Assembly: GCA_902623255.1 (NCBI GenBank)
Contig: CACNSY010000011.1
Span: 1 to 37,779 of the forward strand
Direction: 5' to 3'
Source of the DNA: an uncultured Alphaproteobacteria bacterium
GTDB lineage: Bacteria; Pseudomonadota; Alphaproteobacteria; HIMB59; GCA-002718135
Length of the DNA: 37,779 nt
The translations under genes were made by a program, and so were the position numbers. Of the stretch, positions 3,774-28,013 are shown piece after piece. Position 1 is the stretch's first letter. Each line of letters begins with the position of its first letter. Under the pieces are notes generated by a model that was not told where the DNA came from, did no database searches, and worked only from the letters and a program-made list of their open reading frames with translations.

Positions 3774-4636
3774 AGAATAAAATAATTATAGGTACAGCAA
3801 ATTTTAATCTTAAATATAGATTAAGAAATAATAATAGATTAAATAAAGCTAAAATTAATGACATTCTAAAATACTGCCATACAAATAAAATTAATTTTTT
3901 TGATACAGCTAGAAATTATGACGAAAGTGAGAGTATTATTGGAGAATTTATTCATAAAAATAATATAAAAAATTTTAAAATTATAACAAAATTTAAATTA
4001 TCAAATTCTAGAGCTTTGCAGAGTGCTTACTTAGATTCTCATAAAAAACTTCAAATTAAACCATGGTGTATATTATTACATGACCCAAAAAAATATATTG
4101 ATGACAATTTTAGAAATGAATTATTTAATTTAAAAAAAGAAAATAAAATAAATAAAATAGGAGTATCTGTTTATACAGAAAAAGAAATACTTGAAATTTT
4201 AAAGATAGAAAAGCCAGATATTATACAATTACCAATAAACATACTTGATCAAAATTTAGTACACAATGGTTTATTGAAAAAAATTAAAAATAATAATATT
4301 GAGATTCACGCAAGATCTATATTTTTAAGAGGTTTATTGTATTATACACCATCTCAAATAATTAATGTTTTTCCCATTATAAAAAAAGAAATTTTATTTT
4401 TGCATAAAATTGCCCAATCTAATAATATATCCATTGGAGATTTATCTTTAATATGGGTAAGTAAAATTAAAGAAATAGATAAAATTATTCTTGGTGTATC
4501 TTCAACTACTGAAATTAAATCTAATTTAATGATAATTAATAAAAAAATTAAAGACAATTACTTTGAAAAAATAAATAAAATCAATATTACTAATCAAAAC
4601 ATTATCAATCCTTCAAAATGGAAAAAAAAATTTTAG
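3770..4636 (+). CDS. Aldo/keto reductase family protein in the Pse cluster
   Basis: This 288-residue (beta/alpha)8 oxidoreductase retains the AKR catalytic tetrad: D45 (F-F-D-T-A), Y50 (R-N-Y-D-E-S-E), K74 (I-I-T-K-F) and H104 (L-L-H-D). G-T-A-N-F near 8-12 is the usual opening strand. AKRs reduce carbonyls with NADPH. The natural substrate is unknown; by position between pseC and the CMP-activating enzyme it probably acts on a nonulosonic-acid precursor or side chain, but this is inference because the classical PseB-C-H-G-I-F route has no AKR step. The TTG start at 3770 overlaps the pseC stop (TTGA), a coupled arrangement. The 3' end overlaps the next gene by 19 bases. The C-terminal tail is lysine/asparagine-rich like its neighbours, with no sign of decay. 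Confidence 0.8.
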   Translation: MKNKIIIGTANFNLKYRLRNNNRLNKAKINDILKYCHTNKINFFDTARNYDESESIIGEFIHKNNIKNFKIITKFKLSNSRALQSAYLDSHKKLQIKPWCILLHDPKKYIDDNFRNELFNLKKENKINKIGVSVYTEKEILEILKIEKPDIIQLPINILDQNLVHNGLLKKIKNNNIEIHARSIFLRGLLYYTPSQIINVFPIIKKEILFLHKIAQSNNISIGDLSLIWVSKIKEIDKIILGVSSTTEIKSNLMIINKKIKDNYFEKINKINITNQNIINPSKWKKKF

Positions 4637-6648
4637 CAATTGTACAAGCAAGATCTGACTCAAAAAGATTGCCTAATAAAATTTTATTAAAACTTTATAA
4701 GAAAAATGTAATTGAGACAATTTATGAAAGATTATTGAAATCGAGATATATTAATCAAATTATTATCGCTACTACAACACTAAGGTCTGATGATAAGTTT
4801 TGTAAGTTTCTGGATAAAAAAAATATCAAATATTTTAGAGGTTCATCAAATAATGTTTTAGATAGGTATTTAAAGGCTGCAAATAAATTTAATGGAAATA
4901 TTATTGTGAGAATTACTGGTGATTGCCCACTTATTGATGTTAAAATTGTAGATAAAGTTATAAAGAATTATTTAGATAATAAAGTTGATTATTCATCAAA
5001 TATAACTCCCCCAACATTCCCTAACGGATTAGATGTTGAAGTTTTTTCATTAAATCTAATTAAAATAAACTTTAAAAAAATTAGAAATCAATATGATCTA
5101 GAACATGTAACTACATTTTTTAGAAAATCTAAAAAAATAAAAAAAATTAATTATGAATTTAAAACAAATTTGTCAAATTTAAGACTAACTTTAGATGATT
5201 ATGAAGATTACAAAAATATTATAAATATTTTTAAGTACTTTAAAAATAAAAATTTCACTACTAATGAAGTTATCAAATATCTTGCTAATTCAGGCTCAAT
5301 AAACAAAAAAATACATATTAGAGATGACTTTAATGAATTAGGAACTGGACAAAAATTATGGAAAAAGGCAAAAAGTATAATTCCTGGTGGGAATATGCTT
5401 ATTTCTAAGAGAGGTGAGTTTTTTCTACCAGAACTTTGGCCAAGTTATTATAAAAAATCTAGCGGCTGTCACATTTGGGATTTAGATAATAAAAAATTCA
5501 TTGATATGGCTCTAATGGGTGTTGGTACTAATATTCTAGGATACTCTTTTAAACCAGTTGATAATGCTGTTATTTCTTCAATAAGAGATGGAAATATGTC
5601 TTCATTAAATTGCAGAGAAGAAGTTTTACTAGCAGAAAAATTAATAGAAATGAACAGTTGGTCTGGAATGGTAAAATTTGCAAAAACTGGAGCTGAAGCG
5701 AGTTCAATCGCAGTAAGAATTGCCAGATCTTATTCTCAAAAAGATAATATTGCTATTTGCGGTTATCACGGTTGGCATGATTGGTATTTAGCATCAAATT
5801 TAAAAAATAAAGAAAGTTTAAATAGCCATCTCTTAAAAGGTCTTTATACATCAGGTGTTCCAAAAAAACTCAAAAATACTGTATTTAGTTTTAATTACAA
5901 TGACTTTGACCAGCTTACTAAAATTATAAAAAAACATAATATAGGAACTATAAAGATGGAAGTAATGAGGAACGTAAGTCCAAAAAATGATTTTTTATTA
6001 AAAGTAAGAGATATTGCAAATAAAAATAATATAGTCCTAATTTTTGATGAATGCACATCCGGTTTCAGAGAATTTTATGGTGGGATGTACAAAAAATTTA
6101 AAATTAATCCTGATATAGTAATTTATGGAAAAGCAATTGCAAATGGTTATCCATTAACAGCGGTTGTAGGGAAAAGAGAAGTTATGGAACATGCAAACAA
6201 CAGCTTTATTTCAAGTACATTTTGGACAGATCGTGTAGGATATGTTGCTGCTTTAAAAACACTTGAGTATATGACAAAAACAAACTCATGGAAAAAAATA
6301 TCATTTATAGGAAAAAAGATCAAAAATAATTGGGTAAAATTAGCAAAAAAATATAATTTAAAAATTAATATCTCGGGCATCGATGCATTACCGAGTTTTA
6401 CGTTATTATATGATGATTGGATAAAGTATAAAACTTATATTACACAAGAAATGCTAAAAAATAATATACTTGCGACTAATACTATTTATGTTTCTCTGGC
6501 ACATAAAGAGATTTATATAAAAAAGTATTTTGTAATTTTAGAGGGGATTTTTAAAAAAATAAAAAATTTTGAAAATGATGAAGATTTGAATATAGATTCT
6601 TATCTTGAAAGCTTACCAGCTCAAACAACTTTTGGAAGAATGAATTAA
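4618..6648 (+). CDS. Fusion: SpsF/PseF-type cytidylyltransferase + class III (GSA-like) aminotransferase
   Basis: This 676-residue protein joins two enzymes. Residues 1 to about 228 are an SpsF/COG1861-type nucleotidyltransferase: I-V-Q-A-R-S-D-S-K-R-L-P-N-K at 8-21, R-I-T-G-D-C-P-L-I-D at 98-107, and F-P-N-G-L-D-V-E-V at 134-142. From about 235 to the end it is a class III PLP aminotransferase like glutamate-1-semialdehyde aminomutase. That part has I-I-P-G-G at 254-258, T-G-A-E-A at 357-361, Y-H-G-W-H-D at 383-388, F-D-E-C at 476-479 with D477, and the PLP lysine K505 in Y-G-K-A-I-A-N-G-Y-P. The N-terminal part probably makes CMP-pseudaminic acid (PseF role). The aminotransferase or aminomutase substrate is unknown, although location suggests a sugar or an acyl donor. 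No stop or frameshift separates the parts. Confidence 0.85.
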   Translation: MEKKILAIVQARSDSKRLPNKILLKLYKKNVIETIYERLLKSRYINQIIIATTTLRSDDKFCKFLDKKNIKYFRGSSNNVLDRYLKAANKFNGNIIVRITGDCPLIDVKIVDKVIKNYLDNKVDYSSNITPPTFPNGLDVEVFSLNLIKINFKKIRNQYDLEHVTTFFRKSKKIKKINYEFKTNLSNLRLTLDDYEDYKNIINIFKYFKNKNFTTNEVIKYLANSGSINKKIHIRDDFNELGTGQKLWKKAKSIIPGGNMLISKRGEFFLPELWPSYYKKSSGCHIWDLDNKKFIDMALMGVGTNILGYSFKPVDNAVISSIRDGNMSSLNCREEVLLAEKLIEMNSWSGMVKFAKTGAEASSIAVRIARSYSQKDNIAICGYHGWHDWYLASNLKNKESLNSHLLKGLYTSGVPKKLKNTVFSFNYNDFDQLTKIIKKHNIGTIKMEVMRNVSPKNDFLLKVRDIANKNNIVLIFDECTSGFREFYGGMYKKFKINPDIVIYGKAIANGYPLTAVVGKREVMEHANNSFISSTFWTDRVGYVAALKTLEYMTKTNSWKKISFIGKKIKNNWVKLAKKYNLKINISGIDALPSFTLLYDDWIKYKTYITQEMLKNNILATNTIYVSLAHKEIYIKKYFVILEGIFKKIKNFENDEDLNIDSYLESLPAQTTFGRMN

Positions 6649-6649
6649 T

Positions 6650-6844
6650 ATGAAAAAAAATACTAATAAATATTTAAAAATTATTGATCAAATAGAGAAA
6701 ATAAGATCAAAAAATAATATTAACTGGATGGATCTCTTAAGATTATCATTTAAACATTCTCCTGAAGATGCAAAAAAACTAGTAAAAAAAATTAATACTA
6801 GTGATAACAAAATATCATCATTATTTAAAAAATTATCAAAATAA
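6650..6844 (+). CDS. Small 64-residue helical protein of unknown function
   Basis: A 64-residue, lysine-rich, apparently all-helical protein with no signal peptide or membrane segment. The most structured-looking stretch is K-N-N-I-N-W-M-D-L-L-R-L-S-F-K-H-S-P at about 21-38, with a central tryptophan and an amphipathic helix. It starts 1 base after the fusion gene's stop and ends directly before the formyltransferase ATG, so it is almost certainly translated as part of the array. I have an impression, from memory only, of similar small proteins with an N-W-M-D core in other nonulosonic-acid clusters; I cannot verify that here. A helper or subunit of a neighbouring enzyme is possible. No function is assigned. 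Confidence 0.7.
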   Translation: MKKNTNKYLKIIDQIEKIRSKNNINWMDLLRLSFKHSPEDAKKLVKKINTSDNKISSLFKKLSK

Positions 6845-7420
6845 ATGAAAATTCTTTTTTTAGGACCCAATAAAGAATCTCAGAAAAAAATAATTAATTA
6901 TTTAAAACATGACAATAATCAAATTATTAACATAAATACAAATATTAATTTTGAAAATATAGACGATAGTTTTGATTTTTTACTTTCATATGGATATAGA
7001 TATAAAATCAAAAAAGAAATTTTAGAAAAAATTAAAATTATTTCTTTAAATCTTCATATTTCTTATTTGCCATGGAATAAAGGTGCAGACCCAAATTTTT
7101 GGAGTTTTGCTGAAAATACACCAAGAGGGGTTTCAATTCACGAAATAAATGAGAATATAGATGATGGACCTATAATTTATAGAAGAAAAATAACATATAA
7201 AAAAAGCGATACTCTGTTTTCTTCTTATAATGATCTTTTGGCTTCTATTGAATCACTTTTTTTTGATAAATGGAAATATTTAAAAAAAAATAATTATAAA
7301 AAGAAAACTATAAAAGAAAAAGGTTCATTCCACAGTTCAAGAGATATTGAAAATTACATTAATTTTTTACATAATGGTTGGGATACAAAAGTAAAAAATA
7401 TAATAGGAATTGCTAAATAA
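6845..7420 (+). CDS. Sugar N-formyltransferase (Fmt-fold), catalytic triad intact
   Basis: This 191-residue protein covers the formyltransferase core of the methionyl-tRNA formyltransferase/GART fold and lacks the C-terminal tRNA-binding-type domain, as single-domain sugar formyltransferases often do. The catalytic Asn-x-His is N69/H71 (S-L-N-L-H), followed by L-P-W-N-K-G-A-D-P, and the aspartate is D106 in N-I-D-D-G-P. Family members move a formyl group from N10-formyl-tetrahydrofolate to an amino group on a nucleotide-activated amino sugar. Placed between the Pse genes, it could formylate the 4-amine of the PseC product (the later C7 amine), giving N-formyl pseudaminic acid instead of the acetylation done by PseH. 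The substrate is inference. The ATG at 6845 follows the preceding stop directly. Confidence 0.82.
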   Translation: MKILFLGPNKESQKKIINYLKHDNNQIININTNINFENIDDSFDFLLSYGYRYKIKKEILEKIKIISLNLHISYLPWNKGADPNFWSFAENTPRGVSIHEINENIDDGPIIYRRKITYKKSDTLFSSYNDLLASIESLFFDKWKYLKKNNYKKKTIKEKGSFHSSRDIENYINFLHNGWDTKVKNIIGIAK

Positions 7421-7421
7421 T

Positions 7422-8480
7422 ATGATTAAAATTGCTAACCGTAAGATTGGAAAAAAATTTAAGCCTTTTGTCATAGCAGAGATGTCAGGAAATCATAATC
7501 AGTCAATAAAAAATGCAATAAAGATTATAGATAAAGCTGCAGAATGTGGTGTTGATGCAGTAAAAATTCAAACTTATACTCCTGATACATTAACAATAAA
7601 CTCAACTAAAGATGATTTTAAGATTAAAGATAAAAATAGCTTATGGAAAAATCAAACTTTGTATCAATTGTATAAGAAGGCATATACTCCATGGGAATGG
7701 CACAAAAAAATTTTCTTACATTGTAAGAAAAAAAATCTTATATGTTTTAGTAGTCCATTTGACGAAACATCAGTTGATTTTCTAGAAAAGTATAATGTGC
7801 CAGCATATAAGATAGCATCATTTGAAATAAATAATATCCCATTAATTGAAAAAATTGCAAAAAAAAGAAAACCCATGGTAATTTCAACTGGTCTAGCAAA
7901 TCTGAAAGAAATAAATGAAGTGGTTAAAACTGCTTATAAAAATGGTTGTAAAAAAATAATTTTGTTAAAATGTACTAGCAGTTATCCAGCCGAACCTGAA
8001 GACTCTAACATCTCAACAATAAGAGATTTAATTAATAGGTTTAATTGTGAAGTTGGAATCTCTGATCATACAAAAGGTATAGGTGTATCTATTGCGGCAA
8101 TATCACAAGGCGCAACTTTTATAGAAAAACATTTTACTTTAGATAGAAAAAAAGGTGGTGTTGATGCTGAGTTTTCTTTAGAGCCAGACGAAATGAGGCA
8201 ACTAGTCATTGAAAGTAAGAGAGCATGGCAATCTCTTGGTAAAATTTTTTATGGATCTACAAAATCTGAGGAAAATTCTATTAAATTTAGGAAATCAATA
8301 TATGTTATTAAAGATATTAATAAGAATGATAAATTTACGAGAGAAAACATAAAAATAATTAGACCTGGATTTGGATTAGAGCCAAAATATTTTAATAAAA
8401 TAATTGGTAAGCACAGTAATCATAACTTAAAAAAAGGTGACGCAATCAAACCTACTTATATAAAAAATTTTAAAAAATGA
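7422..8480 (+). CDS. pseI: PseI-type pseudaminic acid synthase (NeuB family)
   Basis: This NeuB-family synthase condenses phosphoenolpyruvate with a 6-deoxy-diamino hexose to make a nine-carbon 2-keto acid. A-E-M-S-G-N-H-N-Q-S at 19-28 and K-I-Q-T-Y-T-P-D-T at 48-56 are signatures of the PseI branch (NeuB and LegI have A-E-x-G-x-N-H-N-G). The TIM barrel spans about 1-280 with E-K-H-F-T-L and G-G-V-D-A-E-F-S later on. A C-terminal SAF/antifreeze-like domain begins near 285 (F-R-K-S-I-Y-V). I chose the ATG at 7422, one base after the upstream stop; a longer TTG frame from 7410 overlaps the upstream gene and adds only four atypical residues. The protein is then 352 residues, normal for the family. 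The 3' end overlaps the next gene by 4 bases. Confidence 0.92.
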   Translation: MIKIANRKIGKKFKPFVIAEMSGNHNQSIKNAIKIIDKAAECGVDAVKIQTYTPDTLTINSTKDDFKIKDKNSLWKNQTLYQLYKKAYTPWEWHKKIFLHCKKKNLICFSSPFDETSVDFLEKYNVPAYKIASFEINNIPLIEKIAKKRKPMVISTGLANLKEINEVVKTAYKNGCKKIILLKCTSSYPAEPEDSNISTIRDLINRFNCEVGISDHTKGIGVSIAAISQGATFIEKHFTLDRKKGGVDAEFSLEPDEMRQLVIESKRAWQSLGKIFYGSTKSEENSIKFRKSIYVIKDINKNDKFTRENIKIIRPGFGLEPKYFNKIIGKHSNHNLKKGDAIKPTYIKNFKK

Positions 8481-9673
8481 ATAATTTAAAAAAATGCTCT
8501 AGATGTGTAACGCCTGAAACGCATGAAACAATTATTTTTGATGAAAATAATATTTGTAATGTTTGTAATAATCAAACTATCAAGAATAATTTAAATTGGA
8601 ACAAGAAAAAAGTTGAATTATTAGAGATAATTTCAAAATATAAAAATAAAAATAAGTATGATTGTATAGTACCATTTAGTGGTGGCAAAGATAGTACTTG
8701 GACATTGTATTATATAGTTAAACATCTAAATCTAAATCCTTTAGTGGTAAGGTTTGACCACGGATTTTTAAGACCCAACCTGGAAAGAAATACAAAAAAA
8801 ACAATAGAAAAACTTAAAGTTGATTTTTTAAATCATACTCCAGTATGGGAGTTGTCTAGAAAACTAATGCTTCAATCATTTTTAGAAAAAGGTGATTTTT
8901 GCTGGCATTGTCATACTGGTATATTTGCCTATCCAATGTGGGTAGCAATTGAGAAAAAAATACCATTAATAATTTGGGGCGAGCCATCCGCAGAGTATAC
9001 AGCTTATTATAGTTATGATCAGCAAGAAGAAGTCGATGAAAAACGATTTAATAGATATATTAATCTAGGAATCACTGCTGAAGATATGTTGATTCGATTA
9101 GAAGGTTTAGTAAATGAAGAAGATTTAAAGTTTTTTTCTTATCCACCAATTAATGAATTAAAAAAAATAAATTACAAATCAATATGTCTTGGATCTTTCA
9201 TAAAATGGGATACAAAAAAACAGTCTGATATTATAATGAAAGAATTAGATTGGAAAGGTGACGAAGTTGAAAATGTTCCTAACAATTATAATTATGAAAA
9301 AATTGAATGCTATATGCAAGGAGTAAGGGATTATATAAAATATATCAAGAGAGGTTATTCTAGAGTTACCCATTTAACTTCAATAGATATTAGAAACAAA
9401 AGACTAAGTCGAGATAAAGCGCTTGAAATCGTGAATGAATATGAAGGAAAAAGACCGCCAAGTCTTGATATTTTTTTACAATATGTAGGTCTATCTGAAA
9501 TTGAATTTAATGAAATTTTAGCTGAGCATATAGTTTACCCTTATAGCCATAATTTTTCAAATGTAGAAATTGGCAAAAAAACTAATGATTATGATAAATG
9601 GAAGATAAAAGATAAAATGCCAGAGGAGGAAGCAAAAATACTTTTAAATAGATGGAAAAGAAGAAAATTTTAA
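8477..9673 (+). CDS. N-acyl sugar amidotransferase, PP-loop ATPase (WbpG/PseA family), copy 1
   Basis: This 398-residue PP-loop enzyme has an N-terminal four-cysteine, probably zinc-binding motif (C7-x2-C10 and C27-x2-C30) and the ATP pyrophosphatase loop S-G-G-K-D-S-T at 68-74. W-G-E-P-S-A-E-Y-T near 170 and a C-terminal region with R-G-Y-S-R-V-T-H and D-I-R-N-K-R are typical of WbpG/PseA/LgaA amidotransferases. Family knowledge: these activate an N-acetyl (or N-acyl) amide of a sugar with ATP and use ammonia from HisH2-HisF2 partners to form an amidine, as in acetamidino-pseudaminic acid or P. aeruginosa O-antigen. The next two genes are exactly those partners. It follows pseI with an ATGA overlap, which suggests a nonulosonic acid substrate. 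A second set occurs at 12861-15471. Confidence 0.9.
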   Translation: MNNLKKCSRCVTPETHETIIFDENNICNVCNNQTIKNNLNWNKKKVELLEIISKYKNKNKYDCIVPFSGGKDSTWTLYYIVKHLNLNPLVVRFDHGFLRPNLERNTKKTIEKLKVDFLNHTPVWELSRKLMLQSFLEKGDFCWHCHTGIFAYPMWVAIEKKIPLIIWGEPSAEYTAYYSYDQQEEVDEKRFNRYINLGITAEDMLIRLEGLVNEEDLKFFSYPPINELKKINYKSICLGSFIKWDTKKQSDIIMKELDWKGDEVENVPNNYNYEKIECYMQGVRDYIKYIKRGYSRVTHLTSIDIRNKRLSRDKALEIVNEYEGKRPPSLDIFLQYVGLSEIEFNEILAEHIVYPYSHNFSNVEIGKKTNDYDKWKIKDKMPEEEAKILLNRWKRRKF

Positions 9674-9679
9674 ATACGT

Positions 9680-10288
9680 ATGATTGGTCTTATTGATTAT
9701 GGAATGGGCAATATTCATTCATTATTGAGTGCTGGAGAATATTTAGGGATAAAAATTAAATTATGCAAAAACAAAAGTGATTTAAAATCAGTAGAAAAAA
9801 TTATTCTTCCAGGAGTTGGAGCTTTTGGAGCATGTATGGATATCTTAAAATCATCAGGTTTTTATGAAGAATTAAATAATCAAGTAATCAATAAGAAAAA
9901 AATTATTTTAGGTATTTGTTTAGGTATGCAAATTATGGCAACTAAAAGTTTAGAATTTGGTGAAACTAAAGGTTTGAATTGGATTTCTGGAACTGTTGAA
10001 AAAATGAATGTAAGTGATAATTTTAAATTACCTCACGTAGGTTGGAATTCTTTAAATCATTTAAGGCAATCGCCATTATTTAATAATTTGAATCTAGATA
10101 GTGATTATTATTTTGTTCATTCGTACTCATTTAAAAACAAGCATCCAAATGATATTCTAGCAACATTTAGTTATTCATCTGATTATACTGCATCAATAAA
10201 TAAAGGAAATATTTATGGAGTCCAGTTTCATCCTGAAAAAAGTCAAGAAAATGGATTAAGAATATTAGAAAATTTTGTAAATTTATAA
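9680..10288 (+). CDS. hisH: HisH-type glutamine amidotransferase subunit, copy 1
   Basis: This 202-residue class I glutaminase has the full catalytic triad: C80 in G-I-C-L-G-M-Q, and H184/E186 in F-H-P-E-K-S. It opens with I-G-L-I-D-Y-G-M-G-N, standard for HisH, and has L-P-G-V-G-A-F at 43-49. In histidine synthesis HisH supplies ammonia to HisF. Here it lies between a WbpG/PseA amidotransferase and a HisF paralogue lacking a key cyclase residue, with no other histidine gene nearby. It is therefore best read as the ammonia source for sugar amidination. ATG start 6 bases after the preceding stop; the next gene starts 2 bases after the stop. Confidence 0.9.
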   Translation: MIGLIDYGMGNIHSLLSAGEYLGIKIKLCKNKSDLKSVEKIILPGVGAFGACMDILKSSGFYEELNNQVINKKKIILGICLGMQIMATKSLEFGETKGLNWISGTVEKMNVSDNFKLPHVGWNSLNHLRQSPLFNNLNLDSDYYFVHSYSFKNKHPNDILATFSYSSDYTASINKGNIYGVQFHPEKSQENGLRILENFVNL

Positions 10289-10290
10289 AT

Positions 10291-11070
10291 ATGTATAAGA
10301 ATAGATTAATTCCTAAATTACTAATTACTAAAAATATAAAAGCAAATAAAAATATACTTGTAACTTCTTTAAAATTTAACGATTATATTTCTATAGGCGA
10401 TCCTTTTAGTCAAACCAAAATATTTGATGCACAATCTGCAGATGAATTAATCATTCTTAATATTGATAATGAGATTGATATAAATTCTAATTTTCAACTT
10501 TTAAAGAAGATTACTAGTCAAATATTTATTCCAGTAACTTATGGAGGTGGAATAAAAAGTTTAGATTTAGTAAGAGAATATTTAAAAAATGGAGCAGACA
10601 AAATTTCTATAAATACAGAAGCTTTAAAAAACCCCTCTTTAATAAGTAAAATATCTGAATATTTTGGCAAATCTACAGTATGTGTGAGTATTGATTATAA
10701 AAAAAATGAAAAAAATATATACAAAGTGTTTGTAAATAGAGGGAAAGAAGAAACTAATCTTAATCCAATAGAATGGGCAATAGAAGCTGAGAGAAGAGGT
10801 GCAGGAGAAATTGTACTATGTAATATGGATAGAGATGGATCAAAAAATGGTCTTGATTTAAACATTACTAAAAAAATATCAAATTTATTAAACATACCCG
10901 TAATTTCTTCAGGAGGTTGCGGTAGTATTGGAGATTTTGTTGATGGATATAAAATGGGAAAAGCTAGTGCAGTATCGGCAAGTACATACTTTTGTTTTAA
11001 AGATCAAGGATTTATGCAAGTTAGATCATCATTAAAAAATGCTGGAATAAGTATTAGAACAAGTACTTAA
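10291..11070 (+). CDS. hisF: HisF-type barrel subunit of sugar amidination, copy 1 (Asp11 replaced)
   Basis: This 259-residue (beta/alpha)8 barrel is plainly HisF-like: A-D-E-L-I-I-L-N-I-D at 50-59, T-Y-G-G-G-I at 83-88, G-A-D-K-I-S-I-N-T at 101-109, N-M-D-R-D-G-S near 178-184 and I-S-S-G-G at 205-209. The second catalytic aspartate position is kept (D135 in V-S-I-D-Y). The first, Asp11 of true HisF (C-L-D-V), is Leu11 here in P-K-L-L-I-T, so IGP cyclisation is unlikely. This matches HisF2-type proteins of acetamidino-sugar systems, where the barrel is thought to channel ammonia from HisH to the PP-loop amidotransferase. The next gene begins at the base after its stop. Confidence 0.88.
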   Translation: MYKNRLIPKLLITKNIKANKNILVTSLKFNDYISIGDPFSQTKIFDAQSADELIILNIDNEIDINSNFQLLKKITSQIFIPVTYGGGIKSLDLVREYLKNGADKISINTEALKNPSLISKISEYFGKSTVCVSIDYKKNEKNIYKVFVNRGKEETNLNPIEWAIEAERRGAGEIVLCNMDRDGSKNGLDLNITKKISNLLNIPVISSGGCGSIGDFVDGYKMGKASAVSASTYFCFKDQGFMQVRSSLKNAGISIRTST

Positions 11071-12084
11071 ATGATTTTAAAACAAAAAAAAATTAATAAG
11101 ATTATTCTTTTTGGAGGATCTATAATTCTATTAGATGTGGCAAAAAGATTAAGGGAGGAAAAGTTCATTATTGAAGTTTATTCATCAAATAGATTACTGA
11201 ATGAAATTATAAATTCTAATGGATCTCTAAAAACAAATTTAATTTCAGAAAAAATAAAATACTATTCCACTAATAATATAAATAAATCTAAACAAATAAA
11301 TAAGTCTATTACAGCTAATAGTTTAGGGATTGGTTTTGGAGAAACTTGGTCATTTGATAAAAAAATAATAAATCAATTCAACGGATATCTTTTAGATTAT
11401 ATGGGAATTCCACTCCCAAGATATAGAGGTGGAGCCCACTTTACTTGGATGATTATTCAAAATGAAAAAAATAATGGTGCTTGTTTGCAATTAATAAATG
11501 AAGATATGATACAGGGTGTTTATGATTCAGGTGAAATCTTGGTCGAAATAAAATTTAAAAATCATTCAAATTGGAATATTAATGATTATTTCAAAAAGCA
11601 GACTATTATTGCAAAAAAATTAATTCTAAAATTTTTAAAAATTATAAATAAAAAAGATATAAAAGGTAAAAAAATTAATGAAGATAATAGTTTTTATTTA
11701 CCGAGATTAAATACAAAAATAAATGGTTGGATTAACTGGTATTCATGGAATACTAAAGAAATTTTAAGATTTATTAAAGCTTTTGGTGATCCATATGATG
11801 GCGCATCTTCAATGATAAACAATAAAAGAGTTTTCATAAAAAATGCAATCCTTGTTAAAAAAACTACATTCCATCCATTTCAAAATGGTTTAATTTGTAA
11901 GATAAATAATAAAACATATGATGTTATTACTATTGATGGCATAATTAATCTCGAAATTATCTTTGAAAAAAAATCAACAAAATTAATTAAAGTAGGCGAT
12001 AGGATTTATACTCCTTTAAAAAAATTAGAGGCTGCTTTTAAGTCAAAACCTAATTATGATTCATTTGGAATAACTAAAAATTGA
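11071..12084 (+). CDS. Two-domain formyltransferase-like protein with altered active site
   Basis: This 337-residue protein has a GART/Fmt-like N-terminal core and an Fmt C-terminal-like domain from about 230 (N-W-Y-S-W-N, F-G-D-P-Y-D-G-A, N-N-K-R-V-F-I). The substrate-loop L-P-R-Y-R-G-G-A-H at 115-123 and a late aspartate, D152 in Y-D-S-G-E, align with formyltransferases. However, the catalytic Asn-x-His just before the loop is Asp109-Tyr110-Met111 (L-L-D-Y-M-G-I-P). The usual general base is missing, so ordinary formyl transfer from formyl-THF is doubtful. From memory, a D-F-M-G-I variant exists as a subfamily in similar clusters, suggesting a changed rather than dead function. It sits between amidination module 1 and the propeller gene; its role is unknown but probably tied to N-acyl or amidine chemistry. 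Confidence 0.72.
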   Translation: MILKQKKINKIILFGGSIILLDVAKRLREEKFIIEVYSSNRLLNEIINSNGSLKTNLISEKIKYYSTNNINKSKQINKSITANSLGIGFGETWSFDKKIINQFNGYLLDYMGIPLPRYRGGAHFTWMIIQNEKNNGACLQLINEDMIQGVYDSGEILVEIKFKNHSNWNINDYFKKQTIIAKKLILKFLKIINKKDIKGKKINEDNSFYLPRLNTKINGWINWYSWNTKEILRFIKAFGDPYDGASSMINNKRVFIKNAILVKKTTFHPFQNGLICKINNKTYDVITIDGIINLEIIFEKKSTKLIKVGDRIYTPLKKLEAAFKSKPNYDSFGITKN

Positions 12085-12088
12085 AATT

Positions 12089-12868
12089 TTGAAACTAATA
12101 AATTTTAAAAAAGAACTTTTTCTAAATAATAAAATTTTTTTAAAAAATTATCAAAATAGTATTTATGACATTTTAATTAAAAACAATTTACTTTATATTC
12201 CTGATTATAAAAATAATAAATTAGTTATTTTTAATATTTTACAAAAAAGAATTGAAAAAGAAATCTTTGTAAAGAGTCCTCATTCAATAATTTGTGATAA
12301 AAATAAATATTTTATAGTAACTTACAGAAATAAAAAAATATATGAATTTTGTAATTTAAATATAAGTAAAAAAATTTCTAATAAATTTTTTTATAATCCT
12401 ATATCAATAGCAAAAAGTCATAAAAATATTTTAATCATAAATTGGAGTAGAAATATTGAAAATCAAGTATTATTATTTGATTCAAAATTTAATTTTTTAA
12501 AAAGAATAATAATCAATCAGAAACATATATCTGCTCATTATGTAATCTTTAAGTCTAATTTTTTTTACTTAGTAAACCATAATGTTAAAAATCCAAAAAT
12601 TTTTGTGTTAAATATAGATGGTGTTTTAGTTGATGAAATAACTAATAGATATATTAAAAATCCTGTTTCAATTAAATATCATCTAAGTAACTTTTTTATT
12701 TGTGATTATAAGATGAATTCACTAAATATATTTAATAATAATTTTGAATTAATGTATAGTTATCAAAAATTAAGCTACCCTATGAATGTTGCGTTTCAAA
12801 GAAATAAAATTTTTGTTTGTGAAGAATATGGTAATAGAATAGTCTCCTTTGATATTGTTTATGAATAA
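12089..12868 (+). CDS. Small beta-propeller-like (NHL-type) protein, unknown function
   Basis: The 259 residues show repeated blocks of about 40-45 residues, with alternating strands and recurring hydrophobic-aromatic patterns. Examples are L-L-Y-I-P-D-Y-K-N-N-K-L-V-I-F-N, H-S-I-I-C-D-K-N-K-Y-F-I-V-T-Y, P-V-S-I-K-Y-H-L-S-N-F-F-I-C-D-Y and P-M-N-V-A-F-Q-R-N-K-I-F-V-C-E-E-Y-G-N-R-I-V. The last ends in the Y-G-N-R-I-V-S-F-D strand typical of NHL repeats. Five or six blades would fit. There is no signal peptide, so it is probably cytoplasmic, unlike most secreted propellers. The TTG start at 12089 lies 4 bases after the preceding stop, and its stop overlaps the next hisH start. Placement inside the amidination region suggests a scaffold or an enzyme (lactonase- or epimerase-like); this is inference. 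Confidence 0.65.
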   Translation: MKLINFKKELFLNNKIFLKNYQNSIYDILIKNNLLYIPDYKNNKLVIFNILQKRIEKEIFVKSPHSIICDKNKYFIVTYRNKKIYEFCNLNISKKISNKFFYNPISIAKSHKNILIINWSRNIENQVLLFDSKFNFLKRIIINQKHISAHYVIFKSNFFYLVNHNVKNPKIFVLNIDGVLVDEITNRYIKNPVSIKYHLSNFFICDYKMNSLNIFNNNFELMYSYQKLSYPMNVAFQRNKIFVCEEYGNRIVSFDIVYE

Positions 12869-13475
12869 AAAAGTTTGTATCTTAGATTATGGCTCTGGTA
12901 ATGTAAAATCTGTTGAAAACTTAGTTAAGTTTTTAAACTTCGATGTTAAAATTTCAAATAATGAAACAGATATTTTAGAAGCAAGTCATTTGATATTGCC
13001 TGGTGTCGGATCTTTTGAATATTCAATGAATAAAATTAAAGAAAAAATACCAATAAAAATTTTAGAAAATGAAGTTTTATCTAAAAAAAAATTTTTTATG
13101 GGAATATGCGTTGGAATGCAAGTTCTTGCAAATTATGGCTATGAAAATGGAAAATTTGAAGGGCTAGGATGGGTTAAAGGTGAAGTTAAAAAATTACAAG
13201 TTAATAATTTAAGCTTACCTCATATAGGCTGGAATAATTGTGATATTTTAAAAAATGATAAAATATTTTCTGATCTAAATGATATAAGAGATTTTTATTT
13301 TTTACATAGTTATTCTGTTAATCTTGAAAATAAAAATAATATAATTGCAACCACTGTTTATGGTAATAAGTTTTGTAGTGTATTAAAACAAAATAATATT
13401 TATGGAATTCAATTTCATCCTGAAAAGAGTCAGAAAGCTGGCATGATTTTGATAAAAAATTTTTTAAATCAATAA
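12861..13475 (+). CDS. hisH: HisH-type glutamine amidotransferase subunit, copy 2
   Basis: This 204-residue class I glutaminase has its full triad: C83 in G-I-C-V-G-M-Q, and H186/E188 in F-H-P-E-K-S. It opens with the family-typical V-C-I-L-D-Y-G-S-G-N. I chose the ATG at 12861, which overlaps the propeller stop by 8 bases and gives the normal N-terminus (M-N-K-K-V-C-I-L-D-Y); a TTG at 12849 in the same frame would add four unusual residues. It differs clearly from copy 1 along its whole length, so the two sets are not a recent duplication. HisF copy 2 begins at the last base of its stop (TAATG). The partner context indicates ammonia supply for sugar amidination rather than histidine synthesis. 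Confidence 0.9.
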   Translation: MNKKVCILDYGSGNVKSVENLVKFLNFDVKISNNETDILEASHLILPGVGSFEYSMNKIKEKIPIKILENEVLSKKKFFMGICVGMQVLANYGYENGKFEGLGWVKGEVKKLQVNNLSLPHIGWNNCDILKNDKIFSDLNDIRDFYFLHSYSVNLENKNNIIATTVYGNKFCSVLKQNNIYGIQFHPEKSQKAGMILIKNFLNQ

Positions 13476-14284
13476 TGAAAAAAAGAAGATTAATTCCCGT
13501 TTTATTGCTTCGAAACGGTTGGCTTGTACAAAGTAAAAATTTTAAAGAATATCAAAATTTGGGTAATCCAGTAACAGCTGTAAAAAGACTTAGTGAGTGG
13601 GCTTCAGATGAATTAATTTATTTAGATATAAGTCAGGATAATATTTACGATATTAATAGATCTGATCAAGGCTATCCAAATAGAAAATTTTTTTTAGATA
13701 TAATATCTGATGTTTCAAAGGTTACATTTATGCCAATCACTGTTGGAGGTAAAATTAGTAATATAAAGGATATAGAAAATAGGCTCAAAGTAGGTGCAGA
13801 TAAAATATCTCTTAATACAAAAGCAATATATGATTTAAATTTTGTAAAAAAAGCATCAAAAGAGTTCGGATCACAATGTATAGTAATATCTATAGATTTT
13901 ATTAAGGAAGATAATGAATATTTTATATATGATAATAAAAAAAGAAGTATTATTAAATTAGATATTTTTGATTATATAAATAAGATTCAAGATAATGGAG
14001 CAGGTGAAATTCTACTTAATTCTGTAAATAGAGATGGTACTGGCAAAGGGTATGATATAGATTTTTATAACAAAATTTATGAAACTATTAATATTCCAAT
14101 AATTGCCTGTGGCGGTGCTGGTGACTGGTTTGATATGTTCGATGTTTTTGATAAAACAAAAGTTGACGCTGTTGCAGCAGCTAACATTTTCCATTATAGA
14201 GATCAAAGCGTTTTTCTAGCAAAAAAATTTTTATATGAAAAAAATATTAATGTTAGAAAACCAGATTTATTAAATATTAAATGA
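13475..14284 (+). CDS. hisF: HisF-type barrel subunit of sugar amidination, copy 2 (Asp11 replaced)
   Basis: This 269-residue HisF-like barrel has S-D-E-L-I-Y-L-D-I-S at 44-53, T-V-G-G-K-I near 89-94, G-A-D-K-I-S-L-N-T at 107-115, N-R-D-G-T-G-K-G-Y-D downstream and A-C-G-G-A-G in the final phosphate-site region. As in copy 1, the Asp11 position is Leu11 (P-V-L-L-L-R-N-G), while the second aspartate is kept (D141 in I-S-I-D-F). It is longer than copy 1 owing to an extra segment around 54-72 (Q-D-N-I-Y-D-I-N-R-S). The loss of Asp11 in both copies supports a shared non-cyclase role with the neighbouring glutaminase and PP-loop enzyme. The 3' end overlaps the amidotransferase start by 4 bases. 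Confidence 0.88.
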   Translation: MKKRRLIPVLLLRNGWLVQSKNFKEYQNLGNPVTAVKRLSEWASDELIYLDISQDNIYDINRSDQGYPNRKFFLDIISDVSKVTFMPITVGGKISNIKDIENRLKVGADKISLNTKAIYDLNFVKKASKEFGSQCIVISIDFIKEDNEYFIYDNKKRSIIKLDIFDYINKIQDNGAGEILLNSVNRDGTGKGYDIDFYNKIYETINIPIIACGGAGDWFDMFDVFDKTKVDAVAAANIFHYRDQSVFLAKKFLYEKNINVRKPDLLNIK

Positions 14285-15471
14285 TATATTGTAAAAAGTG
14301 TGTTTATCCAAAAATTTCTGTGAATCTACATATAGATGAAGAAGGAGTCTGCAGTAGTTGTAGAACTTTTGAAAAATTTCAAACTTTAGATGATGATTTT
14401 TGGGTTTTAAGAAAAAAAAAGTTTGAGAGGTTAGTTGAAGAAATAAAAAATAATAATAATGATAACTATGATTGTTTAATTCCAGTTAGTGGAGGCAAAG
14501 ACAGCTACTATCAAACTCATATAATAGCTAAAGAATATGGTTTAAAACCATTATTAATGACATATCATGGAAACAATTTTTTACCTGAAGGAGATTACAA
14601 TAGGGATAGAATGAAAGAAGTATTTGATGCTGATCACATAGTTTGGGGGCCAAGTGTCGAAGTTCTAAAAAAACTTAATAGAATCACATTTAAAAGAATG
14701 GGTGACATGAACTGGCAAAATCACTGTGGGATTAATACTTCACCTATATCTGTAGCAGTAAAATTTAAAATTCCTTTAATTATATGGGGTGAAATACCCT
14801 TTGATATTTCTGGCATGTTCTCACCAGATGATTTTGTAGAGTTTAGTGCTAGAGTAAGACACGAGCACGATTTAAGAGGTTATGAGTGGAACGATTTTAT
14901 AAACGACGATGAAGATAAATTATATGAGAAAGATTTTAATTGGGCAAAATATCCAACTGATGAGGAAATACTTAATGTAGGTGTAAGAGGAATTTTTATA
15001 GGTAACTATTTTAAGTGGGATCCAAATTGGCATAAAGATATGATCGAGAAAGAATATTCTTGGAAAAAATCAAAAAATAAATTTGAGAGAACCTATAGAG
15101 ATTTTTCAAATTTAGATGATAGGTATGAAAATGGTGTTCATGATTTGCTTAAATTTATTAAATTTGGTTATGGAAGATGTTCCGATCATGCATCTAAAGA
15201 TATTAGAACAGGTTATATTGATAGAGAGAAAGGAATTGAATATGTAAAAAAATACGACCATGTTGTTTCAAGTGATCTTTATCATTGGTTAAATTATGTA
15301 AATATGGACGAAGAAGATTTTTGGTGCATCGCAGATACTTTTAGAGATCCAAAAGTTTGGTGGATAGAAAACAATAAATGGTATAAAGACAATATTTGGG
15401 GCTCTCCATCTGAATATGGTAGTGTATATTTGTCAGAAAATGATAGAAAAAAATATTATCTTAAAAAATGA
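14281..15471 (+). CDS. N-acyl sugar amidotransferase, PP-loop ATPase (WbpG/PseA family), copy 2
   Basis: The 396-residue second copy has the cysteine pairs C4-x2-C7 and C24-x2-C27, then the PP-loop S-G-G-K-D-S at 70-75 in P-V-S-G-G-K-D-S-Y-Y-Q. Other family marks are W-G-E-I-P near 168-172, F-G-Y-G-R-C-S-D-H-A near 298-307 and D-I-R-T-G just after. It differs from copy 1 in the region after W-G-E, where it has D-I-S-G-M-F-S-P-D-D and an extra tryptophan-rich C-terminal segment, so it may act on another sugar or acyl group. Gene order in this set is HisH-HisF-amidotransferase, versus amidotransferase-HisH-HisF in set 1. It overlaps the GNAT gene by 4 bases, hinting that the acetyltransferase makes its substrate. 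Confidence 0.9.
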   Translation: MIYCKKCVYPKISVNLHIDEEGVCSSCRTFEKFQTLDDDFWVLRKKKFERLVEEIKNNNNDNYDCLIPVSGGKDSYYQTHIIAKEYGLKPLLMTYHGNNFLPEGDYNRDRMKEVFDADHIVWGPSVEVLKKLNRITFKRMGDMNWQNHCGINTSPISVAVKFKIPLIIWGEIPFDISGMFSPDDFVEFSARVRHEHDLRGYEWNDFINDDEDKLYEKDFNWAKYPTDEEILNVGVRGIFIGNYFKWDPNWHKDMIEKEYSWKKSKNKFERTYRDFSNLDDRYENGVHDLLKFIKFGYGRCSDHASKDIRTGYIDREKGIEYVKKYDHVVSSDLYHWLNYVNMDEEDFWCIADTFRDPKVWWIENNKWYKDNIWGSPSEYGSVYLSENDRKKYYLKK

Positions 15472-16004
15472 ATTTTGCAATTATTGGAAAGCACATACAT
15501 TTGCGAAAAATTAGGTTAAGTGATGCAAATAATAAATATTTACAATGGTTAAATGACAAGCAAATTAATCAGTATCTTGAAACTAGACATAAAATTCAAA
15601 CAATTAATTCAATAAAAAATTTTATTATAGATTGTTCTAAAAATAATTCATTTCTGATGGCAATTTGTAAAAATAATACAAAAAAACATATAGGCAATTT
15701 AAAAGTTGGACCTATTAATAAAAATCATAACACTGCTGATATAAGTTATTTTATAGGTGATAAAAAAGAATGGGGAAAAGGTTATGCAACTGAAGCAGTC
15801 AAACTTTCATTAGACTATTCTTTTAATGATTTAAAAATTTATAAATGTTTAGCCGGCGTTTATAAAAGTAACATAGCTTCTTCAAAAGTTTTATTGAGGG
15901 CAGGTTTTAAAAAAGAAGCAACAATTAAAAATATGTTTAATTTTAAATCTAGAAGAGAAGATCATATAATTTACGGTATTTCTAAAAATCATCACAATGT
16001 CTGA
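15468..16004 (+). CDS. GNAT-family N-acetyltransferase (RimJ-like), possible PseH role
   Basis: This 178-residue protein has the GNAT acetyl-CoA loop in E-W-G-K-G-Y-A-T-E-A near 103-112, the preceding strand I-S-Y-F-I-G, and the C-terminal N-x-x-S-x-x-V-L-x-R-x-G-F pattern (N-I-A-S-S-K-V-L-L-R-A-G-F). L-R-K-I-R-L-S-D and Y-L-Q-W-L-N-D near the N-terminus resemble GNATs in surface-glycan clusters. It would transfer acetyl from acetyl-CoA to an amino group. As the only GNAT here, it is the best candidate for acetylating the 4-amine of the PseC product (PseH role) or another sugar amine later made into an amidine by the adjacent copy 2 module. ATGA overlaps at its 5' end and an 8-base overlap at its 3' end indicate coupled translation. 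Confidence 0.8.
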   Translation: MNFAIIGKHIHLRKIRLSDANNKYLQWLNDKQINQYLETRHKIQTINSIKNFIIDCSKNNSFLMAICKNNTKKHIGNLKVGPINKNHNTADISYFIGDKKEWGKGYATEAVKLSLDYSFNDLKIYKCLAGVYKSNIASSKVLLRAGFKKEATIKNMFNFKSRREDHIIYGISKNHHNV

Positions 16005-17277
16005 AAATAGTTTAGAAAATATTAAAAAGAATTTACAATTAATTAATCCTCTTCAAAGAATGATTAATTCTGAAGGGTTAAATAATACATTTGATATACT
16101 TAAAAAAAACAACCCAAATTTAATTATTCATGAATTTAATAGTGGAGATAGGGTTGAGGATTGGGAGGTGCCACAAAGTTGGGAAGTTAAAACTGGACAA
16201 ATGATTGATAAAGATGGAAAAATAATTGCATCAATAGAGGAAAATATTCTTTTTGTTGCACCATATAGTGAGCCAATTAAAGGTTGGTTTAGCAAAGATG
16301 AAATTAAAAAACATTTAATGACTAGAGAAGATAGACCGAATGATTTTTTGTTAGAACACAGAAATGCATATGATTATAATCTTAAAAGTTGGGGAATAAC
16401 ACTGCCATTTAATTTATGGAAAAATCTACCAAACGAAAAATATTTTATTGAAATTGATGTTTCGTGGAAAAAAAATTCTATGAAAGTTGGTGAAGTATTT
16501 ATTAAAGGTAAAACCAGTGAAATAATTTGCTTAACAGCGCATATAGATGAACTATGTAATGATGATCTTGTAAGTTGTATAGTTGCTTTAGAATTCTTTA
16601 ATGAATTGATAAAAATAAAAGATCTAAAATATAGTTATCAACTCTTACTGTTTCCTGAGTTATTTGGCCCAATATTTTATTTAAATAGATTCAAAAAATT
16701 AATAGATAATTACAAAGGTATGTTAAATTTAGAAACTGTAGGTTCAGGTGAAAATCTATGTTTAAAACAATCAATAAATGGAAATAGTGATTTAGATTAT
16801 ATTATGAAACTTACTTTAAAAAATTTACAATTAAAATTTAAAGAATTAGACTTTTTTGCAGGTTATCTTAATGATGAAAAAATTTTTTCTTGGCCAAGTT
16901 TGGGAATTGATAGTATCGCTATACAAAGATACCCATTTAATGAATATCACACTTCATCAGATACAATTGATATAATAAATTATAAATATTTAAGTGAAAT
17001 TTTAGAAATATTAAAAAAATTTACTTTTGTACTTGAGAATGATTATATTCCAGAATATGTAAATTTTTTTCCACCTTGGCTTACAAAAAGAGGATTGTAC
17101 ATTGATAAAATAGATAGACCAGATTTAGATAAAAATAAATTTAATAATCAATTACTTTATTCTATAAATGGAAAAAATAAATTATCAGAAATTTGCTATA
17201 AACATAATTTAGATTTTACAGAGGTATATAATTATTTAGACTCATTTATTGAAAAAGATTTACTTAAAAAGTCATAA
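15997..17277 (+). CDS. DUF4910/DUF2172 aminopeptidase-fold protein with C-terminal winged helix
   Basis: This 426-residue protein matches the DUF4910 family layout, in which an M28-like zinc-peptidase fold carries an embedded DUF2172 domain. Family marks are the early R-V-E-D-W-E-V-P-Q-S-W near 52-62, the putative zinc ligands H182 (T-A-H-I-D-E) and D189 (C-N-D-D-L), the acidic F-P-E-L near 219-222, and H318 in N-E-Y-H-T-S-S-D-T. Residues about 385-425 form a small helical, winged-helix-like tail. Such proteins recur in bacterial polysaccharide loci, but their substrates are not established. The canonical H-x-C-H-P-x-x-A-N-D-N motif is H-I-D-E-L-C-N-D-D here, so activity is uncertain. There is no signal peptide. 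The next gene starts at the last base of its stop (TAATG). Confidence 0.75.
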   Translation: MSENSLENIKKNLQLINPLQRMINSEGLNNTFDILKKNNPNLIIHEFNSGDRVEDWEVPQSWEVKTGQMIDKDGKIIASIEENILFVAPYSEPIKGWFSKDEIKKHLMTREDRPNDFLLEHRNAYDYNLKSWGITLPFNLWKNLPNEKYFIEIDVSWKKNSMKVGEVFIKGKTSEIICLTAHIDELCNDDLVSCIVALEFFNELIKIKDLKYSYQLLLFPELFGPIFYLNRFKKLIDNYKGMLNLETVGSGENLCLKQSINGNSDLDYIMKLTLKNLQLKFKELDFFAGYLNDEKIFSWPSLGIDSIAIQRYPFNEYHTSSDTIDIINYKYLSEILEILKKFTFVLENDYIPEYVNFFPPWLTKRGLYIDKIDRPDLDKNKFNNQLLYSINGKNKLSEICYKHNLDFTEVYNYLDSFIEKDLLKKS

Positions 17278-28010: not shown

Positions 28011-28013
28011 TTT

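Follow-up and report, generated by a model that had tools for sequence, protein, structure and literature searches.

Two complete amidination modules, each consisting of an N-acetyl sugar amidotransferase (AT), a HisH-like glutaminase and a HisF-like barrel protein, were identified in a 37,779-nt stretch of DNA (the window; contig CACNSY010000011.1 of GCA_902623255.1, an uncultured Alphaproteobacteria bacterium, HIMB59). They represent two separate module types, and membership of a sequence group goes hand in hand with a particular gene order and with particular changes at the HisF active site. The preferred reading, held tentatively and at somewhat under an even chance, is that they are glutamine-fed amidination machines of different ancestry that serve two N-acyl groups in one pseudaminic-acid-type pathway. 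The open reading frames of both modules, proposed in a preliminary description of the sequence, were confirmed as AT1-HisH1-HisF1 (8477-11070) and HisH2-HisF2-AT2 (12861-15471), and the genes of the window considered here are:

1592..2599, + strand, PseB-type UDP-GlcNAc 4,6-dehydratase (TIGR03589, 468.6 bits, over the cut-off)
2601..3773, + strand, PseC-type aminotransferase (TIGR03588, 422.6 bits, 0.9 under the cut-off of 423.5)
3770..4636, + strand, aldo/keto reductase (AKR; PF00248)
4618..6648, + strand, fusion of a PseF-like cytidylyltransferase and a class-III aminotransferase (GSAM; PF02348, PF00202)
6845..7420, + strand, FmtA, amino-sugar formyltransferase-like (PF00551; NLH motif intact)
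7410..8480, + strand, PseI, pseudaminic acid synthase (TIGR03586, 491.9 bits versus a cut-off of 340)
8477..9673, + strand, AT1, N-acetyl sugar amidotransferase of set 1, 398 aa (PP-loop, tetracysteine; TIGR03573; AT1 group of the tree)
9680..10288, + strand, HisH1, glutaminase of set 1 (TIGR01855, 230.5 bits; C/H/E triad)
10291..11070, + strand, HisF1, HisF-like barrel of set 1 (Leu at the Asp11 position)
11071..12084, + strand, FmtB, formyltransferase-like (PF02911; D-x-M instead of N-x-H)
12089..12868, + strand, putative beta-propeller protein between the two sets (AlphaFold2 model)
12861..13475, + strand, HisH2, glutaminase of set 2, start ATG at 12861 (TIGR01855, 224.1 bits; triad)
13475..14284, + strand, HisF2, HisF-like barrel of set 2 (Leu at the Asp11 position)
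14281..15471, + strand, AT2, N-acetyl sugar amidotransferase of set 2, 396 aa (TIGR03573; AT2 group of the tree)
15468..16004, + strand, GNAT acetyltransferase, weakly PseH-like (PF13302; TIGR03585, 38.5 bits, below the cut-off of 93.1)
15997..17277, + strand, DUF4910/DUF2172/M28-like protein, putative de-N-acylase (PF16254, PF09940, PF04389)
25889..30904, + strand, legionaminic-type genes: LegB-like, LegC, NeuC/LegG, PtmE-like and LegF-like
35823..37483, + strand, NeuD-type acetyltransferase and second nonulosonic acid synthase (NeuB/LegI-like, below the NeuB cut-off)

Between 7410 and 18830 every gene is read from the + strand, with neighbours that either overlap or stand no more than 6 bases apart, and every one of the three terminator-like sites between 6500 and 17500 (2.0 in shuffled sequences, sd 1.6) lies within a gene; a single transcript for both sets is plausible. 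The protein encoded between the sets is predicted to be all beta (pLDDT 87.5, AlphaFold2 with a two-sequence input) and is 47% identical to its counterpart in the sister genome AG-894-N13 (G015).

Both amidotransferases belong to the NASAT/WbuX family (TIGR03573, 331 bits for AT1 and 295 bits for AT2 versus a curated cut-off of 203.2), and a profile search of the whole genome with the WbuX model found these two and no others. Each carries the PP-loop SGGKDS and the tetracysteine motif CxxC...[GN]xCxxC, which, with SGGxDS, defines the family in PMC10607449. HisH1 and HisH2 both score above the TIGR01855 glutaminase cut-off of 105.4 and have the Cys-His-Glu triad, a triad kept in all 58 AT1-type and all 14 AT2-type sets, among which the PP-loop is kept in 56 and 13 and the tetracysteine in 55 and 12, respectively. 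The motifs checked in the window's sets are intact, as had been described beforehand.

HisF1 and HisF2 score below the cut-offs of the WbuZ equivalog (TIGR03572, 250 and 244 bits versus 299.7), the AglZ/HisF2 equivalog (NF038364, 214 and 204 bits versus 310) and histidine-pathway HisF (TIGR00735, 212 and 222 bits versus 294.55). They are nonetheless clear relatives of HisF/WbuZ, and they look able to work like the named WbuZ and AglZ-HisF2 equivalogs outside which they fall. Among the positions checked, both keep Arg5, Glu46, Asp98, Lys99, Asp130 and Glu167, and both have Leu at the position of the IGP-synthase Asp11. Residue numbers and roles are those of the Thermotoga maritima protein, with Asp11 and Asp130 taken as the catalytic pair. 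These scores, the change of Asp11 to Leu and a separate histidine-type HisF on contig C12 (367.8 bits, over the cut-off) rule out that the two sets are histidine-pathway copies.

AT1-type and AT2-type amidotransferases are about 30% identical and form separate groups (SH-aLRT 100 and 99) in a tree built after 13 long-branch or outlying rows were removed from a set of 104, comprising 18 picked from 240 proteins and 86 ATs from 127 distinct loci, with the named AT1 loci partly drawn at random. The sole named anchor for the AT types is the Legionella pneumophila structure 8wex, compared by score alone. Gene order is AT-HisH-HisF in 56/58 AT1-type sets and HisH-HisF-AT in 14/14 AT2-type sets, across phyla. 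A tree of HisH plus HisF mirrors that of the ATs, with two changes for three labels over the 84 labelled sets among 94 distinct ones (from 137 listed with duplicates; type assigned by score to three prototypes, the 10 sets of unclear type being uncounted). At 32 positions AT1-type and AT2-type proteins are fixed differently (at least 90% within each group), which fits two substrates. Recent tandem duplication is ruled out by the low identity and the separate multi-phylum groups; the earlier statement that the sets differ in order and sequence stands. The two types do not fall into one clade; a shared clade with identical predicted specificity had been named as an outcome that would make two distinct amidinations unlikely. 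One finding that counts against the preferred reading is that the AT of a PseB-PseC-PseI locus in the same genus (L015/L141) belongs to none of the three types.

Gene neighbourhoods, with genes assigned by best hit, were counted at loci flanked by 7 kb or more on each side (34/58 AT1-type, 6/14 AT2-type). The AT1-type loci are pseudaminic-type: GSAM, a second aminotransferase, was present in 33 of the 34, PseC in 32, PseF in 32, GNAT in 31, PseI in 29 and PseB in 28. Among the six AT2-type loci, four of them from one class sample, PseI was present in five (four over the PseI cut-off), PseB in three and GSAM in one. The contrast in GSAM suggests that different nitrogens may be served, and its link to AT1-type loci allows a third nitrogen. 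FmtA, considered as a marker of set 2 under a formamidino idea, does not track set 2, as it is near 5/34 of these AT1-type loci and 0/6 of the AT2-type loci, and also near short AT2-type loci (L130, L131 and G015).

In G015 the block is syntenic (FmtA-PseI-AT1-HisH1-HisF1-FmtB-propeller-HisH2-HisF2-AT2-GNAT-DUF4910), and a comparison of 11 genes gave the highest identities for AT1 (81%) and AT2 (82%). The dN/dS values between the two genomes are 0.12/1.69 for AT1 and 0.12/1.12 for AT2, with dS near saturation, and 0.019/0.305 for AT1 versus another genome of the genus (G075). With motifs whole, dN below dS and the highest identities of the compared block, there is no sign that one module is dead. 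G015 has one match to the synthase model and, in a profile search of this 87% complete genome, no NeuC over the cut-off. Retention of both sets beside a single synthase match favours two amidinations in one nonulosonic-acid pathway; a second synthase may be missed, given the incompleteness of the genome and 5,000 Ns beside the block. Paired sets recur, as the preliminary description had suggested checking: two complete sets also occur in one locus in G611 (AT2-type gene with an in-frame stop), G968 (second set of no named type) and G629 (partner set AT2-like, outside the core AT2 group), making four genomes with G015. Among 79 genomes of the 80 named AT1 loci (L105 left out), AT2 was found in 3 at E<=1e-80 and 6 at 1e-60, and in comparison sets in 3/398 at 1e-90 (window's genome included) and in 4/397 and 5/395 at 1e-80; enrichment of AT2 among AT1 genomes is thus weak and not clear.

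The window encodes a NeuB/LegI-like synthase and LegB/C/G-type genes as well as PseI, and no third AT was found in the genome, so one set might amidinate a pseudaminic-type sugar and the other a legionaminic-type sugar. This division, an option of the preliminary description, is decidedly improbable. Legionaminic-type genes in this family are accompanied by a third AT type, which differs from the AT1 and AT2 types in gene order and HisF changes and has a legionaminic-type gene within 9 kb for 13/14 of its rows in the AT tree; its member in a legionaminic locus of the same genus (G075) matches 8wex with 489 bits, versus 80 for AT1 and 114 for AT2, which on these scores and their separate tree groups lie outside the legionaminic-type LpNASAT group. 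The first legionaminic-type gene is 10.4 kb past the end of AT2, and G015 keeps both sets with its one synthase match and no NeuC over the cut-off. A legionaminic-specific function of one set is accordingly disfavoured, although the window has a legionaminic pathway without the corresponding AT type and action on that sugar may still occur here. Of the earlier suggestion of two different amidines, what stands is the difference between the sets, in their separate groups and 32 fixed positions; the version with one amidine on each encoded sugar is disfavoured, and the hypothesis of both at C5 and C7 of a single sugar might apply.

An unlikely but credible explanation is that one set acts on a nonulosonic acid while the second modifies a different N-acyl sugar within the same glycan, as with WbuX and WbpG, since hexoses are substrates of the family elsewhere (PMC10607449). 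In G015 another PseB-PseC-AKR run follows AT2 at a distance of about 13 kb, with no second synthase match, and locus L161 (from the class of G600) is without PseI in its 19.9 kb. Nine alphaproteobacterial genomes have an AT2-type gene, and a synthase over the PseI cut-off occurs in only three (G000, G015, G045); the other six (G039, G083, G611, G749, G968, G1014) have lower-scoring synthases only and no NeuC matches, which counts against the preferred reading. On the other side, five synthases that adjoin AT2-type sets exceed the PseI cut-off, with the set directly after PseI in L132, L163, L164 and L165 and one gene between in L162. It is fairly improbable that the sets stand in for each other, making the same product or overlapping ones redundantly or for different chains, without double modification. 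Several pseudaminic and legionaminic variants occur side by side on Campylobacter flagellins (PMC3958885), but the groups are deeply separate, with their 32 differently fixed positions, and both sets, within a single syntenic block, show purifying selection.

If both sets do serve one pseudaminic-type pathway, HisH in each would use glutamine to generate ammonia, HisF, which no longer acts as an IGP synthase, would pass it on, and the PP-loop amidotransferase would use ATP to activate the N-acyl oxygen of the sugar and replace it with NH to give an amidine. Acting on different N-acyl groups of the same nonulosonic acid, the two would yield a sugar with two amidines and a net positive charge. 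AT1 may serve a nitrogen that depends on the AKR/GSAM branch, and AT2 one present without it. In a specific form, which is improbable, AKR/GSAM would introduce a third amine (C8 likeliest), GNAT would acylate it, AT1 would amidinate it and AT2 would act at the ordinary PseA position. No paper that names a nonulosonic acid with two amidines came up in a limited literature search, and for 8-amino nonulosonic acids only a review (PMC3210612) was relevant among the matches listed.

Nonulosonic acids with one amidination are already known, and the nitrogen used by a given amidotransferase is uncertain even for the Campylobacter model. New here are two module types, each with its own gene order across phyla and with a HisH/HisF tree that follows the AT tree. 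An operon with both types is a direct way to tie each to a position, and once tied, amidine position would be predictable from sequence in the phyla with these modules; the rule linking gene order and changes at the HisF active site to sequence group can be tried in annotation right away. If both sets act on one sugar, the product would resemble sialic acid but bear two amidinium groups beside its one carboxylate, and this charge state would probably alter the cell surface and how it is recognised, for example by phages; with the third amine, the sialic-acid-like sugar would have a net positive charge.

The three-part module resembles those that WbpG of P. aeruginosa O5 and WbuX of E. coli O145 form with their HisH/HisF partners. 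These systems differ in that HisF1 and HisF2 score below the WbuZ and AglZ/HisF2 cut-offs and in their hexose substrates (PMC10607449), FucNAc for WbuX and a diacetamido uronic acid for WbpG. PseA of Campylobacter, a CMP-Pse acetamidino synthase (PMC13317340), is like the window's enzymes an amidotransferase of a pseudaminic locus, with an acetamidino-Pse product; unlike here, one amidine per Pse is described, the sugar being written both Pse5Am7Ac and Pse5Ac7Am (PMC3068675). PtmG and LpNASAT (8wex), the product of the latter being probably Leg5Am judging from Legionella LPS papers, are, like AT1 and AT2, NASAT/WbuX proteins with a PP-loop and a zinc tetracysteine motif, but 8wex matches the two far less well than the same-genus legionaminic-locus AT. 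L. pneumophila serogroup 6/12 O-antigen loci (CapD-DegT-AKR-'LPS biosynthesis protein'-HisH-HisF-acetyltransferase-cytidylyltransferase-GSAM-PseG; PMC3694923) share the gene content of AT1-type loci (cf. L073), the 'LPS biosynthesis protein' being by position the probable AT; the likeness is one of gene content, with one set in the passages cited versus two in the window.

The preliminary description placed and identified the six genes of the two amidination modules correctly, namely set 1 (N-acetyl sugar amidotransferase AT1, HisH1 and HisF1) and set 2 (HisH2, HisF2 and AT2), as open reading frames and family matches agree, and its claim of intact key motifs held for the PP-loops of both amidotransferases and the glutaminase triads of HisH1 and HisH2. 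HisF1 and HisF2 have Leu where IGP synthase has Asp11 (Asp11 and Asp130 being catalytic residues of that enzyme), keep the remaining checked positions, and stay under cut-off in each of three equivalog models for HisF-type proteins; a separate HisF that exceeds its cut-off is encoded on contig C12 of the same genome. AT1 and AT2 both exceed the cut-off of the WbuX model (TIGR03573), are its sole two matches in a profile search of the 1.47-Mb, 47-contig, 87%-complete genome, and retain both the PP-loop and the tetracysteine motif, which define the NASAT family in the available part of its description (PMC10607449).

The sets belong to a surface-glycan locus of 23% GC, within a pseudaminic acid (Pse) run ordered PseB, PseC, aldo/keto reductase (AKR), a fusion of cytidylyltransferase and class-III aminotransferase (GSAM), formyltransferase-like FmtA, PseI, set 1, FmtB, a beta-propeller, set 2, GNAT, and a DUF4910/DUF2172/M28-like protein; a legionaminic acid (Leg)-type run is present further along.

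4618-6648, cytidylyltransferase-GSAM fusion (class-III aminotransferase)
8477-11070, set 1 (AT1, HisH1, HisF1)
11071-12084, FmtB, formyltransferase-like
12089-12868, beta-propeller between the two sets
12861-15471, set 2 (HisH2, HisF2, AT2)

All genes in 7410-18830 are on the same strand, overlapping or spaced by at most 6 bases, and the terminator-like sites in 6500-17500 (three, with 2.0 expected) each fall within a gene; judging from this arrangement, the two sets are likely to share one transcript. Neither PseG nor PseH was found over its cut-off among the 35 open reading frames of the window (NCBIfam, best 25 families per protein). The propeller is predicted to be all beta, with about 24 strands (a confident model, pLDDT 87.5), and is 47% identical to its counterpart in the related genome G015, beyond which it has no match among 80 named loci with AT1-type genes. 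In FmtB, the N-x-H of formyltransferases, presumably catalytic, is replaced by D-x-M (DYMGIPLPRYRGGAH), a form that a pattern search found in 9 of 25 listed relatives (including Desulfatibacillum and Bacteroidia), often close to DUF4910 and GNAT genes in AT1-type loci.

A single clade for both sets, which the preliminary description had named, together with identical predicted specificity, as evidence against two distinct amidinations, was not what phylogeny returned: AT1 and AT2 fall in separate groups. In a tree of 104 amidotransferases, as in a second tree of 91 that omitted 13 rows as long-branch or outlying, a single branch sets off each of the AT1-type (42 rows, SH-aLRT 100), AT2-type (28 rows, 99) and Leg-linked (14 rows, 98) groups. 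Membership was set by score to three prototypes; both are quick trees without bootstraps, and the second retains a warning of long branches meeting. In the tree of HisH and HisF partners (84 labelled of 94 sets), the amidotransferase label changes 2 times for 3 labels. Gene order is AT-HisH-HisF in 56 of 58 AT1-type sets and HisH-HisF-AT in all 14 AT2-type sets, and HisF precedes HisH in 12/12 Leg-linked sets. Asp is found at the Asp11 position of HisF in none of these 58 AT1-type and 14 AT2-type sets, with Asp130 kept in 72/72, whereas Leg-linked HisF (e.g. loci L006, L009, L027) has the opposite pattern (Asp11 in 8/12, Asp130 in 0/12). At 32 amidotransferase positions the AT1 and AT2 groups each have their own residue, present in at least 90% of the group; at 44 positions such a residue is common to both. 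In the window's genus, certain loci of Leg or Pse type have amidotransferases outside all three types (e.g. L020, L015); the set in the PseB-PseC-PseI locus of L141 (genome G013) and L015 is possibly a further module type.

Gene context, scored by best hit at loci flanked by 7 kb or more on each side, links the AT1 type to Pse: near 34 AT1-type loci are GSAM (33), PseC (32), PseF (32), GNAT (31), PseI (29), PseB (28) and AKR (24), and few Leg genes (LegB 4, LegG 1, LegI 1, LegC 0). Near the 6 AT2-type loci are a synthase with PseI as best hit (5, of which 4 exceed the PseI cut-off), LegI-type genes (2) and GSAM (1 of 6, versus 33/34; Fisher p = 5e-5, uncorrected for kinship). Six of ten synthases scanned exceed the PseI cut-off (L162-L165 and the first copies at L132 and L102) and four do not (L158, L160 and the second copies at L132 and L102). 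An AT2-type gene is present in nine alphaproteobacterial genomes, of which only three (the window's, G015 and G045) encode a synthase that exceeds the PseI cut-off. The other six (G039, G083, G611, G749, G968 and G1014) have lower-scoring synthases only, which weakens a plain Pse reading of AT2, and they have no NeuC match either. Leg-linked amidotransferases have at least one Leg-type gene within 9 kb in 13 of 14 tree rows; against the Legionella pneumophila structure 8wex, the one from G075 scores 489 bits, AT1 80 and AT2 114.

The 80 fetched AT1-type loci derive from Alphaproteobacteria, Bacteroidota, Cyanobacteria, sulfate reducers and others. Two uncultured Alphaproteobacteria are of the window's genus: in G015 (AG-894-N13) the genes between FmtA and DUF4910, both included, keep the window's order, and G075 (AG-461-E22) has an AT1 96% identical on a contig that stops within HisH1. 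In two Desulfatibacillum loci (L051, L053) and in L116, from a Syntrophales MAG, the run is almost that of the window but lacks the propeller and set 2 (no AKR match in the three, no PseI match in L116), and thus the window's locus looks like an AT1-type Pse locus plus an adjoining second module.

The survey of paired sets that had been proposed found two complete sets per locus also in G015, G611 (L089; AG-422-N15, Pelagibacteraceae; AT1-type and AT2-type), G968 (L158; same taxonomic order as G611; AT2-type and untyped) and G629 (L108; Thermodesulfobacteriota; AT1-type and an AT2-like set outside the core AT2 group). In L089 the match to the AT2-type gene, around 16044, is interrupted by an in-frame stop, the adjacent AT1-type gene being open. 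Of 79 named AT1 genomes, 7 by hand count (G560, G572, G599, G611, G624, G629, G633) have a second amidotransferase no more than 15 kb from the AT1-type one, though not every one of the seven also has a second HisH/HisF. Lentisphaeria S016_21 (G623, L169) differs from the window in that one HisH/HisF pair lies between two amidotransferases, which would share its ammonia. AT2 occurs in 3/79 AT1 genomes at 1e-80 (6/79 at 1e-60), with no clear enrichment over three comparison samples (3/398 at 1e-90, window's genome included; 4/397 and 5/395 at 1e-80), and in 5 of 162 genomes of the window's order, its own included.

G015 has one match to the synthase model and a weak NeuC match (79 bits; cut-off 235.9), counts limited by genome completeness and by 5,000 Ns adjoining the block, and G968 and G611 have one synthase match apiece. 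Thus, two sets persist where the usual Leg pathway is not detectable, which makes two amidinations within one nonulosonic acid pathway (a Pse-type one in the case of the window and of G015) a tentative reading that falls a little short of an even chance. Elsewhere in G015 (contig C6, 78000-97900, L173), a second PseB-PseC-AKR run precedes radical SAM, cytidylyltransferase-like and unidentified genes, with no second synthase match; this run may belong to a further pathway, leading to a diamino sugar or a cyclitol.

In ordinary Pse, the nitrogens are those on C5 and C7. The window encodes a DUF4910-type protein, which is presumably of one family with Campylobacter Cj1295. In the part of the report available (PMC3068675), Cj1295 is described as having an aminopeptidase-like domain, and its proposed role is to remove the acetamido group at C5 of Pse. 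AT1-type loci additionally bring GSAM, and often AKR; the near constancy of GSAM could reflect a third amine on the sugar, with C8 as the likeliest position. A third nitrogen has a precedent in Flexibacter maritimus, which has an 8-amino pentadeoxynonulosonic acid (PMC3210612, in part).

A search under six spellings, in a collection with few subscription journals, found no paper on a doubly amidinated nonulosonic acid. The gene content of AT1-type loci is that of L. pneumophila serogroups 6 and 12, as far as the accessible text describes them (PMC3694923). Amidination modules are already known, described in the sources available with one amidine per sugar, and the two amidotransferases of Campylobacter serve separate sugars, PseA for Pse and PtmG for Leg, according to the available portion of PMC13317340; therefore two complete modules of different types inside one predicted Pse operon appear to be new.
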